Part shown: one piece after another, positions 8,960-17,122 of the stretch
How the letters are laid out: each line of letters starts with the position of its first letter
How positions within the stretch are numbered: the stretch's first letter is position 1
Assembly: GCA_007119965.1 (NCBI GenBank)
Contig: SKOR01000063.1
Span: 1-41,600 of the forward strand
Direction of reading: 5' to 3'
Length of the DNA stretch: 41,600 nt
Source of the DNA: Syntrophomonadaceae bacterium
GTDB taxonomy: Bacteria > Bacillota > Dethiobacteria > DTU022
The notes under the pieces: model-generated
Database searches by the model: none
Seen by the model: only the letters and a program-made list of their open reading frames with translations
What the model was told of the DNA's origin: nothing
Position numbers and translations under genes: made by a program

Positions 8960-10048
8960 ATGAAACTATTAATCGGTGGTGGAGGAACAGGCGGCCATAT
9001 CTATCCGGCCCTGGCTTTAGCCCGTTATGCGCAGGCTGAAGACAGCACTATCGAAATTCTCTTTGTCGGAACGGAAAAAGGCCTGGAAAGTAAAATAGTC
9101 CCCTCAGCGGGCTTTACCCTTAAAACTGTCCCGGTTCGCGGTTTCCAGCGCAATTTGAAACAGCTCGGGCCGGTAGCGGTTGATTTATTCCGCGGGTTAA
9201 AGCAGGTTTCCAGGGTCATTAATGAATACAGGCCCGATGTAATTCTCGGAACAGGCGGTTACGTTGCAGCGCCCCTGGTTATTGCGGGCCTTCTGAAGGG
9301 CTACCCTGTCGTCCTGCACGAACAAAATGCCCTGCCCGGACTGGTTAATCGCAGGTTGGCCCCATTTGTGAAAAGGGTCTGTATCTCTTTTGCTGAAACC
9401 GAAAAAAGAATATCGCGTTTTAGCAGGGTTTTCTATACCGGCAATCCTCGTGCTTCCGAAGTTGCAACGATGAGCAGGCAGGAAGGATGCCGCCATTTTA
9501 ACCTGGACCCCGACGGGATAAATATTTTAATATACGGCGGGAGCAGGGGAGCTTTAAAACTAAACCAGGTAGTAACTGAATACCTGAAAAAAGGTCTGCT
9601 GCCCGGGGCAGTAAACCTGATTTACGTCACGGGCGATATTTACTACGCAGAGGTATCAGCAGAACCGGGCACCCAAAGTCAGCGGGTCAGGCTTTACCCT
9701 TACCTGGACAGGATGCCGGAAGCCCTGGCGGCAGCGGACCTGGCTGTAACCAGGAGCGGGGCAACTACCCTGGCTGAAATTACAGCGCTCGGAATTCCCG
9801 CCCTGCTGGTTCCCTCGCCGAACGTGGTCAACAACCACCAGTATTACAATGCCAGGCTGCTGGCTGATGCGGGAGCGGCAGTTTTGGTTGAAGAAAAAGA
9901 TTTTGATTACAGGCGTCTCCAGCAGGAGCTGGACCGCTTGCTAAATGATCCCTCCCTGCTGGAAGAAATGAAAAAAAAGAGCAGGCAGATGGGTGTTACC
10001 GATGCTGCTGTACGGCTGTACCGTTGTTTACAGGAGGTAGCTTCATGA
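8960..10048 (+). CDS. murG: lipid II synthase MurG
   Basis: MurG transfers GlcNAc from UDP-GlcNAc to lipid I on the inner face of the membrane, forming lipid II. It is a GT-B glycosyltransferase of 362 residues. The glycine-rich loop GGGGTGGHIYPALA (6-19) and a second one, YGGSRGALKLN, in the C-terminal half mark the two Rossmann domains; LHEQNALPG is also typical. It starts 3 bp after the ftsW stop and its end overlaps the murB ATG by 4 bp. murC, often found between murG and murB, is absent. Confidence 0.97.
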   Translation: MKLLIGGGGTGGHIYPALALARYAQAEDSTIEILFVGTEKGLESKIVPSAGFTLKTVPVRGFQRNLKQLGPVAVDLFRGLKQVSRVINEYRPDVILGTGGYVAAPLVIAGLLKGYPVVLHEQNALPGLVNRRLAPFVKRVCISFAETEKRISRFSRVFYTGNPRASEVATMSRQEGCRHFNLDPDGINILIYGGSRGALKLNQVVTEYLKKGLLPGAVNLIYVTGDIYYAEVSAEPGTQSQRVRLYPYLDRMPEALAAADLAVTRSGATTLAEITALGIPALLVPSPNVVNNHQYYNARLLADAGAAVLVEEKDFDYRRLQQELDRLLNDPSLLEEMKKKSRQMGVTDAAVRLYRCLQEVAS

Positions 10049-10944
10049 ATATTGAGAGGGAACTGGGGCAAAAGTTAAAAAACGGCGTTAAAAAAAATGA
10101 ACCGATGGCCAAACACACTTCATGGCAGGTGGGCGGCCCGGCAGATTATTTTCTCTGTCCCGCGGACCTTAAAGAACTGGTCGAGATTGTCCGTTACAGC
10201 GATAAATACGGGCTGCCGCTCTACGTTCTCGGGAACGGCACAAACCTGCTGGTTCTTGACGGGGGCATCAGGGGCCTGGTCGTCAATATTGGCCCTGCCT
10301 TCTGTTATGTTAACCGCGAAGGCAGCGTAATTAAAGCAGGTGCGGGAACCCCGATGACTTACCTGGCCCGGTCTGCGGCAGAGCAGGGCCTGGTCGGACT
10401 GGAATTTGCCGCCGGTATTCCCGGTTCACTGGGCGGGGCCGTGATCATGAATGCCGGGGCATTCGGCGGACATCTGGGAGATAAAGTCCTGTCCGTAAAA
10501 CTGGTTTCCCCTGCGGCAGAAGTGATCACGGTAGAAAGAGACAACCTTTTATTCGGCTACCGGACCAGCAACCTGCCAGGTAAAGGCGTTCTGGTAGAAG
10601 CAGCTTTAGAACTAAAACAGGGTGATGAAGCAGAATCACTTAAACTGGTGGAATATTTTCTAAGCGAACGCCGCCGCCGGCATCCCGATCTGCCCAGTGC
10701 CGGTTCGGTCTTCAGAAATATGCCCGACCAGCCGGCGGGGAGAATTATTGAAGAAATCGGCTGCAAGGGAATGCGTATCGGCGGGGCTGAAGTATCCTGT
10801 AAACACGCTAACTTTATTGTCAATACCGGAAATGCGACCGCTGCCGATATTCGCTCTTTGATTGAAGCGGTCAGGCAAAAGGTCAGGGAAGTATACAATC
10901 TTGAACTCCAGCCTGAAGTTAAAATTATCGGCGAGGAGAGCTAA
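10045..10944 (+). CDS. murB: UDP-N-acetylenolpyruvoylglucosamine reductase MurB
   Basis: A FAD- and NADPH-dependent reductase that converts UDP-GlcNAc-enolpyruvate to UDP-MurNAc. ATG 10045 is chosen because aggagg lies at 10032-10037 and the start overlaps the murG stop (ATGA). In the 299-residue product, the FAD-binding parts LGNGTNLLV (62-70) and GIPGSLGGAVIMNAGA (124-139), GYRTS with an active-site arginine (R173), and SAGSVFRN with the proton-donor serine (about S221) are visible. The short form lacking the extra loop of E. coli MurB fits type II enzymes. Confidence 0.96.
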   Translation: MNIERELGQKLKNGVKKNEPMAKHTSWQVGGPADYFLCPADLKELVEIVRYSDKYGLPLYVLGNGTNLLVLDGGIRGLVVNIGPAFCYVNREGSVIKAGAGTPMTYLARSAAEQGLVGLEFAAGIPGSLGGAVIMNAGAFGGHLGDKVLSVKLVSPAAEVITVERDNLLFGYRTSNLPGKGVLVEAALELKQGDEAESLKLVEYFLSERRRRHPDLPSAGSVFRNMPDQPAGRIIEEIGCKGMRIGGAEVSCKHANFIVNTGNATAADIRSLIEAVRQKVREVYNLELQPEVKIIGEES

Positions 10945-10947
10945 AAG

Positions 10948-11739
10948 GTGAATGTTAAAAACAGCCACTTAAAACTGGTTAATAACCGCAGGGGGCAACC
11001 CGGCTGGAAGAAAGCATTTAACTTCCTGCTCAGGCTGGCCGTGTTTGCGGTGCTCCTGTTGCTGTTAAAGCACGGAGAAACATATTTCCGCGTAAACGAG
11101 GTTGAGGTGCAGGGGACCGGTGAACTGACCGCAGAAGAAGTAATCTCGGCTGCTCAGATAACCAGGGGGATGAGCATCATACTGCTGAAAGAAGACGATA
11201 TCGCCTCAAATATTGAACAGGAGTACCCCATGGTCCGGAATGTCGAGGTAAGCCGCATCCTGCCAGATAGAATAATGATTAACATTGATGAAAGACGGCC
11301 CGTTGCCCATATTATGACTGCCGATGGCTTCTGGCTGATGGATTCCCAGGCTGTCCCGTTTGCGTACCGGGCGGAACCGGAAGACGATTTCCCTGTAATC
11401 AAGGGGGTTGAAGGAGAGCTTGTGATACCCGGAATACCCGTAGACTGCAAGGCAAGGCGGGAAGCGCTGCGCAGCTTTTTCGCCGCCTGGAACGGGGATA
11501 GCGGCTTTGAAATAGAGCAGATCAACATGGCCGATAACTATAACCTGGTAGTTTTGACGGTAGAAGGGCTGGAGATCTGGTTTGGCGACGGAAAGGATAT
11601 GGCAGACAAAATGAACCTTGTGAGTATGAGCATGCCCTACATAAACCCGGATCCGGAAGCACGGCTTGATGTCCGCTCCGGGAACCGCCTGGTTGTCTCC
11701 AGCAGCGCAATATTAAAAGAAGAGGGGGTGGATCCGTAA
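10948..11739 (+). CDS. ftsQ: cell division protein FtsQ/DivIB
   Basis: A bitopic divisome protein of 263 residues with a basic cytoplasmic N-terminus, one membrane helix (about 25-41), a POTRA domain starting near VNEVEVQGTGELT (49-61), and a beta domain. It holds FtsL and DivIC in a complex that controls septal synthesis. GTG 10948 follows a gaggagag site, 3 bp after the murB stop. The 85 bp that follow contain the ftsA promoter, so the first part of the operon may end in part here. Confidence 0.92.
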   Translation: MNVKNSHLKLVNNRRGQPGWKKAFNFLLRLAVFAVLLLLLKHGETYFRVNEVEVQGTGELTAEEVISAAQITRGMSIILLKEDDIASNIEQEYPMVRNVEVSRILPDRIMINIDERRPVAHIMTADGFWLMDSQAVPFAYRAEPEDDFPVIKGVEGELVIPGIPVDCKARREALRSFFAAWNGDSGFEIEQINMADNYNLVVLTVEGLEIWFGDGKDMADKMNLVSMSMPYINPDPEARLDVRSGNRLVVSSSAILKEEGVDP

Positions 11740-11749
11740 AAAACAAAAA

Positions 11750-11778
11750 AAAGGAAATAGTTGAGATGTGTTGAATAA
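11750..11778 (+). promoter_or_regulatory. sigma-H type promoter for ftsAZ
   Basis: AAAGGAAAT (11750-11758) and GTTGAATAA (11770-11778) are 11 bp apart. Both match every position of the B. subtilis sigma-H consensus (RnAGGAwWW, then RnnGAATww at 11-12 bp). In B. subtilis a sigma-H promoter raises ftsAZ expression at the start of sporulation. Its position, about 46 bp before the ftsA GTG, fits that role. Seen as sequence match only. Confidence 0.65.
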
Positions 11779-11824
11779 TTTAGTAGTAATTGCAGCATGC
11801 TGGGAAGGGTAAGGGGGACGTGAA

Positions 11825-13057
11825 GTGAATAAAAGAAACTACATTGTCGGTATTGATGTTGGCACAGCTGAGGTAAGGGTTGGTCTGGGTGAACCCCGTC
11901 CCGATGGAACTGTTAACATCATCGGTTTAGGTCTGAGCCCTTCCGACGGGGTGCGAAAAGGCGTGATTGTTGATCTGGATAAAACCGTTGAGTCGATTGT
12001 TAACGCGGTCGAGGAAGCTGAAAGGATGGCCGGCTTTAAAATCGAATCGGCATACATCGGTTTAAAGGGTCTGAATATGGAGTTGATTAACAATCGGGGC
12101 GTTGTTGCCGTAACCGCAGACGATCGTGAAATACGCGAAGATGATGTCGAAAGGGTGATGCAGGCAGCGAAGGTTGTTGCCCTGCCCATGGATCGCGAGA
12201 TAGTCGATATCATCCCACGTGAGTATATCGTGGACGGTTTTGAAGGAATCAGGGATCCGGTCGGCATGCTGGGGGTCAGGCTCGAAGTAGATGCCCTCGT
12301 CGTCAGCAGCCTGATTACTTCCCTGCACAACCTTCTGCGTTGTGTTAATCGGGCCGGGGTTACAATTAACGGCCTGATTTTACAGACGATGGCCAATTCT
12401 GAAGTTTACCTATCACCAGATGAAAGAGATCTGGGCGTATTCCTGATCGACATAGGCAGCGGGACAACAGAGATCGCACTTTTCCAGCATGGGAAGCTGC
12501 AAAAAATGGCGGTAGCTCCGGTCGGGGGAGATCATATTACCACCGACCTGGCGGCAGGCTTAAGGATAAACCATTTTAAGGCCGAAGAGCTGAAAAAAGA
12601 ATACGGATCGGCTCTCCTTTCACTTGCTGAAAGTGAACCGAAAATCGAAATTAAAACTGTAGGCAGCAATGAGCTCAGGCTGGTGTCGGAAAGAGAGCTC
12701 GCATCATTTATCGAGCCGAGGGTACAGGAAATTTTTCAAATCATTAAAGAAGAAATGATCAAAATGGGTCTGCCCTATTTGCCGCCGGCAGGAGCTGTCC
12801 TGCATGGTGGAGTTTCTTCAATGAACGGGATTGTTGAAGTTTCCCGCCAGTTTTTTGAAAGCGATCAAATCAGGCTTGCCGAATTTGATATGGTTGGCAT
12901 TCAAAACCAGACATATTCAACAGTGGTCGGGTTGCTTTACTACGTGCAGCGTTATCAGCCGAGGATGTTTGTCCAGGAACGCGGCAAGCCGACTAAAAAA
13001 CGCGGGCCGGGTTTCTGGCAGAGAATCAAAGACTGGATGACCGATATAGTTGATTAA
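11825..13057 (+). CDS. ftsA: cell division protein FtsA
   Basis: An actin-like ATPase of 410 residues that tethers FtsZ to the membrane. The phosphate 1 loop is GIDVGTAEVRVG (9-20), phosphate 2 is LIDIGSGTTEIALF (207-220), and the last 15 residues (GFWQRIKDWMTDIVD) form the amphipathic membrane-targeting helix. GTG 11825 follows a aagggggac site. It lies 31 bp before ftsZ with no terminator between, so the two are co-transcribed, helped by the candidate sigma-H promoter upstream. Confidence 0.96.
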   Translation: MNKRNYIVGIDVGTAEVRVGLGEPRPDGTVNIIGLGLSPSDGVRKGVIVDLDKTVESIVNAVEEAERMAGFKIESAYIGLKGLNMELINNRGVVAVTADDREIREDDVERVMQAAKVVALPMDREIVDIIPREYIVDGFEGIRDPVGMLGVRLEVDALVVSSLITSLHNLLRCVNRAGVTINGLILQTMANSEVYLSPDERDLGVFLIDIGSGTTEIALFQHGKLQKMAVAPVGGDHITTDLAAGLRINHFKAEELKKEYGSALLSLAESEPKIEIKTVGSNELRLVSERELASFIEPRVQEIFQIIKEEMIKMGLPYLPPAGAVLHGGVSSMNGIVEVSRQFFESDQIRLAEFDMVGIQNQTYSTVVGLLYYVQRYQPRMFVQERGKPTKKRGPGFWQRIKDWMTDIVD

Positions 13058-13088
13058 AAGAGCATACCAATAACAGGAGGTGCTTTTA

Positions 13089-14162
13089 ATGATTGAGTTT
13101 GACATTGAAATGGAACAATATGCTTCCATAAAAGTTGTAGGTATAGGCGGAGGCGGCAGCAATGCCGTAAACAGGATGATTGCCGCCGGACTGCAGGGAG
13201 TCGATTTTTGTGCTGTTAACACTGATGCGCAGGCCCTCTACCTGGCCAATGCTGGAACTAAACTGCAGATCGGCGAACAGTTGACCAAGGGCCTCGGTGC
13301 AGGTGCCAACCCCGAAATCGGGCGCAAAGCTGCTGAAGAAAGCAGCGACGAGATTGAAAAAATGTTAAAAGGCGCCGACATGGTTTTTGTTACAGCCGGA
13401 ATGGGCGGCGGCACAGGAACAGGAGCCGCTCCCGTTATAGCCGAGATAGCCCAAAAGGTAGGGGCCCTGACTGTTGGCGTGGTTACCAAGCCATTTTCCT
13501 TTGAAGGAAGAAAACGTAAACAGCAGGCTGAAGAAGGGGCTGCCGGCCTGAAAGAAAAGGTTGACACGCTGATTACCATCCCCAATGATCGGCTGCTCCA
13601 CGTGGTCGAGAAGAAGACCCCGATCCTGGAAGCTTTCAGGGTTGCCGATGACGTTCTCAGGCAGGGTGTGCAGGGCATTTCCGACCTGATCGCCGTCCCC
13701 GGCCTGATCAACCTCGATTTTGCTGATGTGCGCACGATCATGTCTGAAACAGGCCCCGCCCTGATGGGTGTCGGGCAGGGCAGCGGAGAAAACCGCACTG
13801 TCGAGGCAGCCAAGGCCGCAACCAGCAGTCCCCTGTTGGAAACCTCGATTGAGGGAGCCAGGGGCGTCCTGATCAATGTAACCGGCGGCACCGATATCAG
13901 TCTCCATGAAGTTCACGAAGCAGCCGAGATCGTCGCAGGGTTTGCCGATCCTGACGCCAATATAATCTTCGGAGCAGTAATTGATGAAAACTGCCAGGAT
14001 CAGGTGCGCGTTACCGTAATCGCTACCGGCTTCAGGGCCGCCCGGGAAGGCTTCAAGCCGAAACTGGCGGCAGTAGGCGGCAGCGCTTACTCACGCGGAG
14101 AAAATATCGATGCCCCGGCCTGGTCACGCTGGCAGCAGAATGAGAAAATTGTAAACGAATAG
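13089..14162 (+). CDS. ftsZ: cell division GTPase FtsZ
   Basis: The tubulin-like GTPase that forms the Z ring. GTP is bound by [12 protein letters not shown] (104-115), and the T7 loop carries the catalytic aspartates in GLINLDFAD (205-213). ATG 13089 is chosen for the strong aggagg at 13075-13080; GTG 13080 would lie inside that site. The product is 357 residues with a short linker after the core. Its tail, [11 protein letters not shown] followed by about eight residues, departs from the common IPAFLRR-type peptide that binds FtsA and SepF, keeping only the D-x-P-x-aromatic-x-R pattern. Confidence 0.96.
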
Positions 14163-14196
14163 CAGCAGTTCAGCGCTTCTAATTAATGCAGTTAAT

Positions 14197-14227
14197 CCCG
14201 GCACTCAGAGCAGATCTGAGTGCCGGG
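14197..14227 (+). terminator. hairpin after ftsZ, likely transcription end
   Basis: A perfect 13-bp stem (cccggcactcaga with tctgagtgccggg) closes a 5-base loop 35 bp after the ftsZ stop. No T-run follows, so it is not a classic intrinsic terminator, but its strength and position at the end of the division operon suggest termination or 3'-end protection. Confidence 0.5.
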
Positions 14228-14269
14228 CCGCTTTAAGCATCAAATCTTGCCCTAAACAAAAAAAAGGGC

Positions 14270-14298
14270 TTTACACACAATATATTGTGTTCTATAAT
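14270..14298 (+). promoter_or_regulatory. nrdR promoter
   Basis: TTTACA (14270-14275) and TATAAT (14293-14298) lie 17 bp apart, a near-consensus housekeeping promoter for nrdR and probably nrdD-nrdG. The spacer is almost filled by NrdR box 1. Confidence 0.85.
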
Positions 14299-14322
14299 AA
14301 CTAAAATGCAATATATTGATGG
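14275..14322 (+). promoter_or_regulatory. tandem NrdR boxes
   Basis: Box 1 is a perfect 16-bp palindrome, ACACAATATATTGTGT (14275-14290). Box 2 (about 14306-14321) shares the core caatatattg (14309-14318) with weaker flanks. Their cores are 31 bp apart, three helical turns, the spacing known for NrdR sites. Box 1 lies between the -35 and -10 and box 2 near the transcription start, so bound NrdR should block RNA polymerase and regulate its own gene and the reductase. Confidence 0.88.
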
Positions 14323-14334
14323 GAGAGCCTAACC

Positions 14335-14850
14335 ATGAAATGTCCATACTGCGGCGAATTAGATACCAGGGTCCTTGATTCTCGCTCGACCCAGGACTCT
14401 TCTGCAATCAGGCGCAGGCGCCAGTGTATTACCTGTGCCAATCGTTTCACCACCATGGAAAAGCTTGAAGAAGAACCAATTGTTGTCGTCAAGCGCGACG
14501 GGCGCCGGGAATTATTCGATCCCAATAAAATTTTAAAAGGGCTGGTCCTGGCCGGCCAAAAAAGAAACATCCCGCTCTCACGCTGGGAAGAAGTAGTTGA
14601 AAACCTGGAGCAGGAACTTCGCAGCAGTTACCCCAAGGAAGTAGCCGCAGATAAAATCGGCGATATTGTCCTCAACAAACTGCGCACAATCGATGAAGTG
14701 GCCTATGTCCGCTTTGCTTCCGTGTTCCGGCAGTTTCCCGATGTAGAAACGTTTAAAGTTGAGCTGGAAGAAATGCTTGCGGAGAAAAAAGGCCGGGCTA
14801 CGGGAGCAGGGCCGGAAGGCGGCAGCCAGAAGCCGGGGAACCAAAATTAA
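14335..14850 (+). CDS. nrdR: ribonucleotide reductase repressor NrdR
   Basis: NrdR represses ribonucleotide reductase genes when its ATP-cone domain is loaded with dATP. The N-terminal zinc ribbon has cysteines C3, C6, C31 and C34, and the ATP-cone begins at VVKRDGRRELFDPNKI (51-66). The 171 residues are about 15-20 longer than usual because of a glycine- and lysine-rich tail after residue about 150. The double NrdR box in its own promoter and the class III reductase downstream fit its role. Confidence 0.97.
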   Translation: MKCPYCGELDTRVLDSRSTQDSSAIRRRRQCITCANRFTTMEKLEEEPIVVVKRDGRRELFDPNKILKGLVLAGQKRNIPLSRWEEVVENLEQELRSSYPKEVAADKIGDIVLNKLRTIDEVAYVRFASVFRQFPDVETFKVELEEMLAEKKGRATGAGPEGGSQKPGNQN

Positions 14851-15025
14851 AAACCGGTTCTGAACTCAGCATACAGTAAAAATCAAGCCTGATTGCCGGA
14901 CATAACCCGGTAGAATTTGCTCGGGAGTAAGCGGTTAGACCATGTCGGAAAGTTATTAAAGGGCAGGCCTTATTCCTGTATCTGACTTCTGACACCTGAC
15001 TTCTAATACTAAGGAGGTATTTCTT
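14851..15025. other. nrdR-nrdD intergenic region with a heptad repeat
   Basis: These 175 bp carry no gene. Near the end, TGACTTC, TGACACC and TGACTTC follow each other with a 7-bp period (14983-15003), just before the aaggagg ribosome binding site of nrdD (15011-15017). I see no terminator, no further NrdR box and no clear promoter. Confidence 0.6.
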
Positions 15026-17122
15026 TTGAACGACGGCGCAGCAACGGTTAAAAAGGAAAACAGGACGCCCATACCAAGTAAGTTTCCTGAAATTCGCAAA
15101 CGCGACGGCCGCGTGGTATCATTCGATCCCGATAAAATTACCGACGCAATATTTAAAGCGGCCAGGGCAGTTGGCGGCAGCGACCGCGATATAGCCGAAA
15201 ACCTGACCAGGCAGGTTGTGAAAAGCCTGGAGGAAAAAGGCCAGAACGGGGTTATCCCTTCGGTGGAAGAAGTGCAGGATGAGGTGGAAGTAACCCTGAT
15301 CGAAAACGGCCACGCCCGCACAGCCAAGGCGTATATTCTTTACCGTGATCGCCGTACGCGTATTCGGGACGGTAAATCCGAACTTATGGATGTGGTTAAA
15401 GATATCCTGATCGAAACCAGCAGGGAAAATGCCAACGTCAGCAATTCTCCATCGGCCAAGATGCTGCAGATTGCCACCGCCGCCAGCAAGCAGTATTACT
15501 TGAGCAACCTGCTTCCCGAAGAATATGCCCGGGCCCACGATGAGGGGAGCATGCATATACACGATCTCGATTATTACAGCAAAACCCTGAACTGCCTGCA
15601 AATCGACCTTTCAAGGATGTTAAAAGAAGGGTTTAATACCGGTTACGGTTATATCCGACCGCCCAAGCGGATCGCTTCGGCGGCGGCCCAGGCGGCCATT
15701 ATTCTGCAGAGCAACCAGAACGACATGTTTGGCGGCCAGAGTTTCCCTCATTTTGACCGCAGTATGGGAGAAGTGATCAGGGATCTGAAAAAACTGCCTG
15801 ATTACGAGGAGATCTACCAGGCCATGGAAGGCCTGATCTATAATCTCAATACTATGCACAGCCGGGCAGGGGCGCAGGTGCCGTTCAGTTCGATTAACTT
15901 TGGCACAGATACCACTGCGGAGGGGCGGATGGTCACACAGGCGGTCCTCGAAGCCTTCATGCGGGGCCTGGGCCGGGGAGAAAGCCCTATTTTCCCCAAC
16001 CTGGTCTTCAGGGTTAAAAAAGGGATCAATTTTGACGAAAATGACCCGAACTACGATCTCTTCAAACTGGCGATTGAAGTTGCCTCGCGCAGGATGAACC
16101 CCACTTTCAGCTTCATGGACAGCACCTTTAACCGCGAATACGGTGATGAAGTATCCTACATGGGCTGCCGCACCCGCGTTATTGCCAACCGGCACGGCCC
16201 CGAAGTTTCAGCAGGGAGGGGTAATATTGCCCCTGTTACTTTAAACCTGCCCCGCCTGGCCCTTGAATGCCGCGGCCAGCAGGATCAGTTCTTTATCCAG
16301 CTCGATCGCCTGATGCGTACCGCTGCGCGACAGCTCCTTCACCGTTTTGAGGTCTTATCCAGGCTGCGGGTCCGGGATCTGCCTTTCCTGATGGGCCAGA
16401 AACTATACATGGATTCCGATCAGCTGGCTCCGGAAGAATCGATTCGTGAAGTAATTAAACACGGCACGCTGGCAATAGGTTTTATCGGGCTTGCTGAAAC
16501 CCTGCATGCCCTGATCGGAAAACACCACGGAGAAGATGCCGAAGCCCTTGAACTGGGCCTGAAAATAGTTGAGCATATGCGCAGAAGGTCAGACAGTTAC
16601 GCTGAAGAGTACGATCTCAACTTTGCCATTGTCGCGACCCCTGCCGAAGGCCTGGCCGGCCGTTTTGTGGCCATGGACAAGGAGCGATATGGAACCAGGC
16701 CCGGGGTCACCGACAAAGATTATTACAGCAATTCTTTTCACATTCCGGTATATTACACGATGTCCATGTTTGACAAAATAAATTCTGAAGGACGCTTTCA
16801 CCGCTTTTGCAACGCGGGTCACATCAGCTACACGGAACTGGAAGCGCCGCCCGTGCACAACCCGGAAGCCGTAGAACGGATTATCCGCAGCATGGCAGCT
16901 GCAGATGTCGGTTACGGCGGGATCAATTATCCGCTTGATGAGTGCCGCAGCTGTTCTCACAGCGGGGTTTTTAACCAAAGCTGTCCTGAATGTGAAAGTC
17001 CCGATATCAGGAGAATCCGCCGTATTACAGGCTACCTGTCGACCGATGAACGCTTTAACGAGGCCAAGTACAGCGAGCTTACCGATCGGCGGGTTCATTT
17101 AGCAACAGGGGGTAAGCGGTAA
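15026..17122 (+). CDS. nrdD: anaerobic ribonucleoside-triphosphate reductase (class III)
   Basis: An oxygen-sensitive glycyl-radical enzyme that reduces ribonucleoside triphosphates to deoxy forms. Its 698 residues have an N-terminal ATP-cone (RKRDGRVVSFDPDKI near 24-38), a conserved MGCRTRV segment with a candidate active-site cysteine (C381), a C-terminal zinc site (C640, C643, C653, C656) and the radical loop in RRITGYLS with G669, 30 residues from the end, as in E. coli NrdD. The start is TTG 15026, eight bases after aaggagg. The activase gene follows after 1 bp. Confidence 0.97.
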   Translation: MNDGAATVKKENRTPIPSKFPEIRKRDGRVVSFDPDKITDAIFKAARAVGGSDRDIAENLTRQVVKSLEEKGQNGVIPSVEEVQDEVEVTLIENGHARTAKAYILYRDRRTRIRDGKSELMDVVKDILIETSRENANVSNSPSAKMLQIATAASKQYYLSNLLPEEYARAHDEGSMHIHDLDYYSKTLNCLQIDLSRMLKEGFNTGYGYIRPPKRIASAAAQAAIILQSNQNDMFGGQSFPHFDRSMGEVIRDLKKLPDYEEIYQAMEGLIYNLNTMHSRAGAQVPFSSINFGTDTTAEGRMVTQAVLEAFMRGLGRGESPIFPNLVFRVKKGINFDENDPNYDLFKLAIEVASRRMNPTFSFMDSTFNREYGDEVSYMGCRTRVIANRHGPEVSAGRGNIAPVTLNLPRLALECRGQQDQFFIQLDRLMRTAARQLLHRFEVLSRLRVRDLPFLMGQKLYMDSDQLAPEESIREVIKHGTLAIGFIGLAETLHALIGKHHGEDAEALELGLKIVEHMRRRSDSYAEEYDLNFAIVATPAEGLAGRFVAMDKERYGTRPGVTDKDYYSNSFHIPVYYTMSMFDKINSEGRFHRFCNAGHISYTELEAPPVHNPEAVERIIRSMAAADVGYGGINYPLDECRSCSHSGVFNQSCPECESPDIRRIRRITGYLSTDERFNEAKYSELTDRRVHLATGGKR

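Follow-up and report, generated by a model that had tools for sequence, protein, structure and literature searches.

A probable sigma-H-type promoter before ftsAZ that apparently outlived sporulation in a lineage of Syntrophomonadaceae

We consider it probable that ftsA and ftsZ of this Syntrophomonadaceae bacterium are served by a sigma-H-dependent promoter that is old in the phylum, has been kept under purifying selection after the loss of spore formation, and acts at growth arrest. The usual explanation of sigma-H control of ftsAZ is the asymmetric spore septum. Here, the site lies in a lineage that appears to have lost its endospore programme. The window (the whole stretch of DNA analysed) comprises 41,600 nucleotides.

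Results

The element in the ftsQ-ftsA gap

The sigma-H consensus consists of a -35 box RNAGGAWWW and a -10 box RNNGAAT spaced by 11-12 bp. In the window, an 85-bp gap separates the end of ftsQ at 11739 from the GTG start codon of ftsA at 11825, and the stretch 11750-11776 within it reads AAAGGAAAT-AGTTGAGATGT-GTTGAAT. All 13 specified positions of RNAGGAWWW-N11-RNNGAAT are matched, as can be read directly from the letters, which upholds the claim of the sequence-only reading that both boxes agree fully with the consensus across an 11-bp spacer. The element is directly upstream of ftsA, with 48 bases between GTTGAAT and the start codon. The AGGA and GAAT cores of the SigH motifs given in PMC12456013 agree with the consensus used. 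The assignments of FtsQ, FtsA and FtsZ rest on NCBIfam matches, that of FtsQ being weak. The features are as follows.

10948-11739, upstream of the element: ftsQ (NCBIfam, 40.5 bits, below the cut-off of 353)
11750..11758, + strand: -35 element AAAGGAAAT, 8/8 specified positions of RNAGGAWWW, kept in relatives
11759..11769, + strand: 11-bp spacer AGTTGAGATGT with a clade-specific GTTGA repeat; spacing peak at 11 in the 51- and 76-region sets
11770..11776, + strand: -10 element GTTGAAT, 5/5 specified positions of RNNGAAT
11777..11824, + strand: putative 5' leader with the conserved GGGAAGGGTAAGGGGG and a Shine-Dalgarno sequence (alignment of 20 genomes)
11825..13057, + strand: ftsA (TIGR01174, 365 bits, over cut-off)
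13080..14162, + strand: ftsZ (TIGR00065, 451 bits, over cut-off)
14197..14227, + strand: perfect 13-bp hairpin after ftsZ, a possible transcript end without a T run, read from the sequence
14335..14850, + strand: nrdR, directly after ftsZ (TIGR00244)

The element is the only exact match to RNAGGAWWW-N11/12-RNNGAAT on either strand of the window. The chance level is a mean of 0.09 per window over 200 dinucleotide shuffles, and since 18 of the 200 contained at least one match, the lone match is by itself just modestly unusual; with one mismatch allowed at a spacer of 11, the window holds four matches against 1.4 expected. What makes the motif convincing is its conservation in relatives.

Scanning the gap for promoters gave no sigma-A-like site, and a sigma-A reading of AATAAT at 11774-11779 was rejected for want of a hexamer resembling TTGACA 17 bp further upstream. 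The gap also yielded no terminator, and the genes upstream are closely packed, so read-through from the mur and ftsQ genes is likely. The hairpin at 14197-14227 is absent from the terminator list of the scan, and no Rfam match was found in window positions 9000-15100 at E 0.1. An upstream ATG considered as the start of a leader ORF was rejected, as the alignment shows it not to be conserved in relatives. Just ahead of the ftsA start codon, the clade defined below has conserved the block GGGAAGGGTAAGGGGG (11801-11818), which exceeds the usual Shine-Dalgarno length. Further downstream, a sigma-A-like promoter (11/12) at 14270-14298, before nrdR, overlaps the perfect palindrome ACACAATATATTGTGT, which we take to resemble an NrdR box.

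Conservation upstream of ftsA

Two sets of genomes were compared. The order set comprises 60 genomes from the genus, family and order, 53 of them with an ftsA match; its 51 upstream regions are those of the window and 50 relatives, G035 and G056 being left out for want of a gene start. The phylum sample comprises 139 genomes with 79 ftsA matches, of which 76 regions were read, the remaining three (G000, G015, G039) already belonging to the order set; its start codons were placed by BLAST alignment, and some may lie a few codons away from the true start. The best site was taken as the top score in each region, a choice that for G009 initially picked a site lying within ftsQ. A position-restricted rescoring was confined to spacer 11 and lists sites scoring at least 11.

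The motif proposed from the window is also found before ftsA in relatives. At least 12 of the 13 positions agree in 45/51 regions of the order set (1.6 expected from letter shuffles) and in 50/76 of the phylum sample (2.3 expected), and all 13 agree in 32/51 (0.07 expected) and 14/76 (0.1 expected), respectively. In the phylum sample 26/76 regions score below 12, and 37/76 reach 12/13 under position restriction at spacer 11. When spacers from 4 to 23 were scanned, both sets peaked at 11 bp (44/51 and 42/76); a spacer of 12 came second in the phylum set (13/76), with every other spacing at 9 or fewer. Of 12 named relatives whose FtsA identities are 65-92%, eight have the strict core AGGAAAT-N11-GTTGAAT; a thirteenth match, to a Verrucomicrobia record, was left out. 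Outside the window's family the letters of the spacer vary while the two boxes stay. This conservation, the spacing peak and the persistence of the boxes across variable spacers indicate that the element is most probably a sigma-H-type promoter, old in the phylum.

Spore markers and SigH

Spore genes were sought through Spo0A, with a cut-off of 200 bits, and SpoIVA, searched at E 1e-20. According to PMC3533761, spore-forming and asporogenous Firmicutes can be told apart by Spo0A, with exceptions recorded. The order set has Spo0A over cut-off in 29/60 genomes and SpoIVA in 26/60. The bacterium's own genome, 96.6% complete, yielded no Spo0A over cut-off, the best match reaching 76.4 bits, and no SpoIVA. 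The same holds for 22 relatives of the same family, giving 0/23 for either marker in what we call the clade (G000-G006, G008-G014, G018, G020, G023, G025, G026, G028, G030, G032, G034), a working group that is not tree-based and in which 14/23 genomes are at least 90% complete. FtsA identity to the window is 79-100% in clade members with a match and 52-68% in the remaining family members with one. Other members of the same family do carry Spo0A and SpoIVA.

Gene order behind ftsZ adds to this picture. In a sporulating relative (L022), ftsZ is followed by spoIIGA, sigE and sigG (12601-15313) and then by nrdR; at this junction in the window, spoIIGA-sigE-sigG is absent and nrdR stands there instead. 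Among 11 named clade relatives, nrdR follows ftsZ in eight and nrdD in one (L017); in another (L021) the place is taken by other genes, which run on the opposite strand, and the contig of the last (L012) ends there. In a further locus, L020, nrdD matches within 13079-16690 fall in two pieces 1.5 kb apart, which suggests an intein, an intron or another insertion. To judge from gene content, the lineage appears to be asporogenous, its endospore programme gone.

The sequence-only reading had pointed to sigH and spo0A as genes to look for in the genome, and their outcomes diverge. Spo0A is lacking at the 200-bit cut-off, as given above; one full-length SigH is encoded at C101:17590-18177, scoring 372 bits (cut-off 294.8). 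SigH exceeds its cut-off in 44/60 genomes of the order set, and it is present in 134/139 genomes of the phylum sample at E 1e-30, 125 of these over cut-off. Within the non-sporulating clade, 12/23 genomes have it; of the 14 genomes with a completeness of 90% or more, 11 do. No profile match over cut-off was found in six genus-mates (G001-G006), five of which carry a perfect site; the sixth, G002, gave no ftsA match. This absence looks like missing contigs or assembly gaps: the matching contig of G003 breaks off at the very start of sigH, that of G001 ends shortly before it, and in G023, from another genus, the contig breaks before sigH, so that loss of sigH in the genus-mates is not supported. 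The rlmB neighbourhood was not found in G002, G004, G005 and G006; two of these show a match of about 74 bases to the neighbourhood, and the same match recurs in other genomes.

Retention of the site after apparent spore loss

Compared with the window over the 13 specified bases, eight of the 11 clade relatives are identical, and the other three keep 12/13, 11/13 and 8/13. At fourfold-degenerate sites of ftsA, these 11 relatives are 36-61% identical to the window, and FtsQ next door is 37-58% identical in clade relatives. Under position restriction, clade sites reach at least 12/13 in 18/20 cases and are perfect in 13/20, counts that are not corrected for relatedness; two members, G018 and G028, have degraded sites. 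Sporulating members of the same family reach 12/13 or better in 5/9 cases and are perfect in 0/9 by the same scoring. Five further order members with neither spore marker (G042, G043, G048, G050, G059) all have 13/13. The phylum sample contains six genomes with an ftsA upstream region and without SpoIVA; 12/13 is kept in G138, G162 and G178, and the site falls below 12/13 in G082, G094 and G134, so that retention without SpoIVA is not universal. Because the spore genes searched for are absent and the promoter is fixed while synonymous sites of ftsA have strongly diverged, sigma-H control of ftsAZ has apparently outlived sporulation in this lineage.

Other sigma-H-like sites and the spacer repeat

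The pattern AGGAWWT-N11/12-RNNGAAT occurs 40 times in the genome against 2 for a reversed-pattern control, whose count is probably too low, as stop codons occur within the reversed pattern. Given this control, and the same excess in all 60 genomes of the order set, including those without a SigH match, the genome-wide excess is not proof of a regulon. Of these sites, 29/40, that of ftsA included, are not within long frames and precede, by 22-140 bp, an open frame that has a Shine-Dalgarno-like sequence. By a similar rule, a gene-start location was found at the own-genome loci examined for 30/42 full sites, some counted twice in overlapping loci that were chosen for holding sites, versus 5/94 AGGAWWT half-sites. 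One sigma-H-like site precedes hpf in the bacterium's own genome and in G009, G032 and G034, all four without Spo0A and SpoIVA; genes downstream of further sites encode desulfoferrodoxin, a Mur ligase, AMP-binding enzymes, RNase PH, PurN and a B12-dependent ribonucleotide reductase.

The promoter itself contains a direct repeat of GTTGA with a period of 10 bp (window 11760-11775), strong in the non-sporulating clade only. In clade spacers, a GTTGA (or GTGGA) precedes the GTTGA (or GTAGA) of the -10 box by exactly 10 bp. Across the 19 clade sites listed, the two copies share on average 5.16 of 6 letters, where shuffled spacers give 2.03; the corresponding values are 2.78 and 1.66 in sporulating family members and 1.57 and 1.61 in other families of the order. 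The 16-bp repeat GTTGAWATGTGTTGAA was found in 18/227 loci examined, all 18 of which hold an ftsA upstream region, several being duplicates. The repeat could serve as an operator, or it could be a feature peculiar to this promoter.

Discussion

The sequence-only reading had proposed that sporulation control of ftsAZ is conserved far from Bacillus. The conserved part is the sigma-H-type site upstream of ftsA, kept in relatives and across the phylum sample. The sporulation part fares differently: the genome and its 22 relatives are without Spo0A over cut-off and SpoIVA, spoIIGA-sigE-sigG is not found behind ftsZ, and since the lineage looks asporogenous, the link to the asymmetric spore septum does not hold here.

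How does the arrangement compare with known systems? B. subtilis has a sigma-H promoter just upstream of ftsA for ftsAZ (Gonzy-Treboul et al. 1992, as cited in PMC12421865), as predicted here. Unlike the host of the present element, which lacks Spo0A over cut-off and SpoIVA, B. subtilis is a spore former; it has sbp between ftsQ and ftsA and a mapped sigma-A promoter as well (PMC3762067). In Clostridioides difficile, ftsZ (CD2646) has a SigH promoter with boxes AAAGGAAAA and GTGGAAT, and its transcript stands at 0.34 in a sigH mutant (PMC7438776); the boxes are alike, but the promoter is assigned to ftsZ rather than ftsA, and the organism forms spores. Lactobacillus sakei likewise retains SigH as a non-sporulator, with a regulon concerned mainly with competence; the text of PMC3364868 contains neither ftsA, ftsZ nor 'cell division'. 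A literature search, mostly below full-text level, recognised no report of sigma-H control of ftsAZ in non-sporulators.

What could the promoter do without a spore septum? We propose that the 27-bp element is a sigma-H-dependent promoter which would start an ftsA-ftsZ transcript in the ftsQ-ftsA gap, an arrangement that would be old, occurring in most sampled ftsA upstream regions of the phylum. With the endospore programme presumably lost in the lineage, SigH and the promoter would remain under purifying selection. As nutrients run out, SigH would rise and lift FtsA and FtsZ, and the higher levels would let cells finish division while growth stops, in parallel to ribosome hibernation through hpf. 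That SigH uses the ftsA site, and the timing and effect of this use, we infer from sequence; most likely sigma-H raises FtsA and FtsZ at growth arrest. The mechanism is modelled on B. subtilis. There, hpf is switched on by sigma-H when nutrients become limiting, and PftsAZ needs (p)ppGpp for its activity once exponential growth has ended; cells without (p)ppGpp are longer, and the authors judged Spo0A unimportant for the sigH rise in early transition (PMC12421865).

Other explanations have to be weighed against this one. Transcription of ftsAZ might simply come mainly or constitutively from this promoter, with SigH active in growth and no role at growth arrest, a reading that we hold to be rather unlikely yet worth serious consideration. 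It would suit the lack of a detected sigma-A-like site in the gap, the sites nearer to consensus in the clade (13/20 perfect) than in sporulating family members (0/9), and the SigH motifs that precede 322 transcript starts in Sporomusa, core metabolism included (PMC12456013). The likely read-through from mur and ftsQ, with genes packed upstream and no terminator found in the gap, argues against it, and the presence of hpf and the desulfoferrodoxin gene among the sites fits arrest and stress. We regard it as quite improbable that the lineage still sporulates through a diverged or incompletely assembled programme, the promoter serving the asymmetric septum as in B. subtilis. The drafts are fragmented, SigH is kept and other members of the family have both markers, but Spo0A over cut-off and SpoIVA are missing from 23/23 clade genomes, 14 of them at least 90% complete, and nrdR follows ftsZ in the window and 8/11 relatives where L022 has spoIIGA-sigE-sigG.

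A single loss of sporulation could explain the whole clade, and were it recent, the site might be a relic that has not yet decayed. The conservation of all 13 bases in 8/11 relatives despite 36-61% identity at fourfold sites of ftsA, with FtsQ alongside at only 37-58%, makes this highly improbable. A chance match or the site of another factor is barely credible: a full match is expected 0.09 times per window, but the same place, spacing and sequence recur in dozens of genomes. More speculative, and in our view doubtful, is a broader joint reading of the growth-arrest promoter, according to which the sigma-H/ftsAZ module (with hpf) would be the older one and spore septation would have been built on it; the clade would then have re-tuned the module through a GTTGA-repeat operator, some regulator taking the place of Spo0A-linked control. 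The repeat, clade-specific and lying within the promoter at a spacing of one helical turn, would be the candidate operator in that doubtful scenario.

Promoters of this kind are known from B. subtilis and C. difficile; new are the retention without sporulation and the clade-specific 10-bp direct repeat in the spacer. The growth-arrest reading suggests that the use of the ftsAZ switch extends beyond the making of spores to division at nutrient exhaustion. If selection keeps the promoter without a spore programme, the wiring would be useful in its own right, in the simplest case for dividing at growth arrest, and a lineage that has naturally lost sporulation but retained the switch would make it testable which of the two roles came first.
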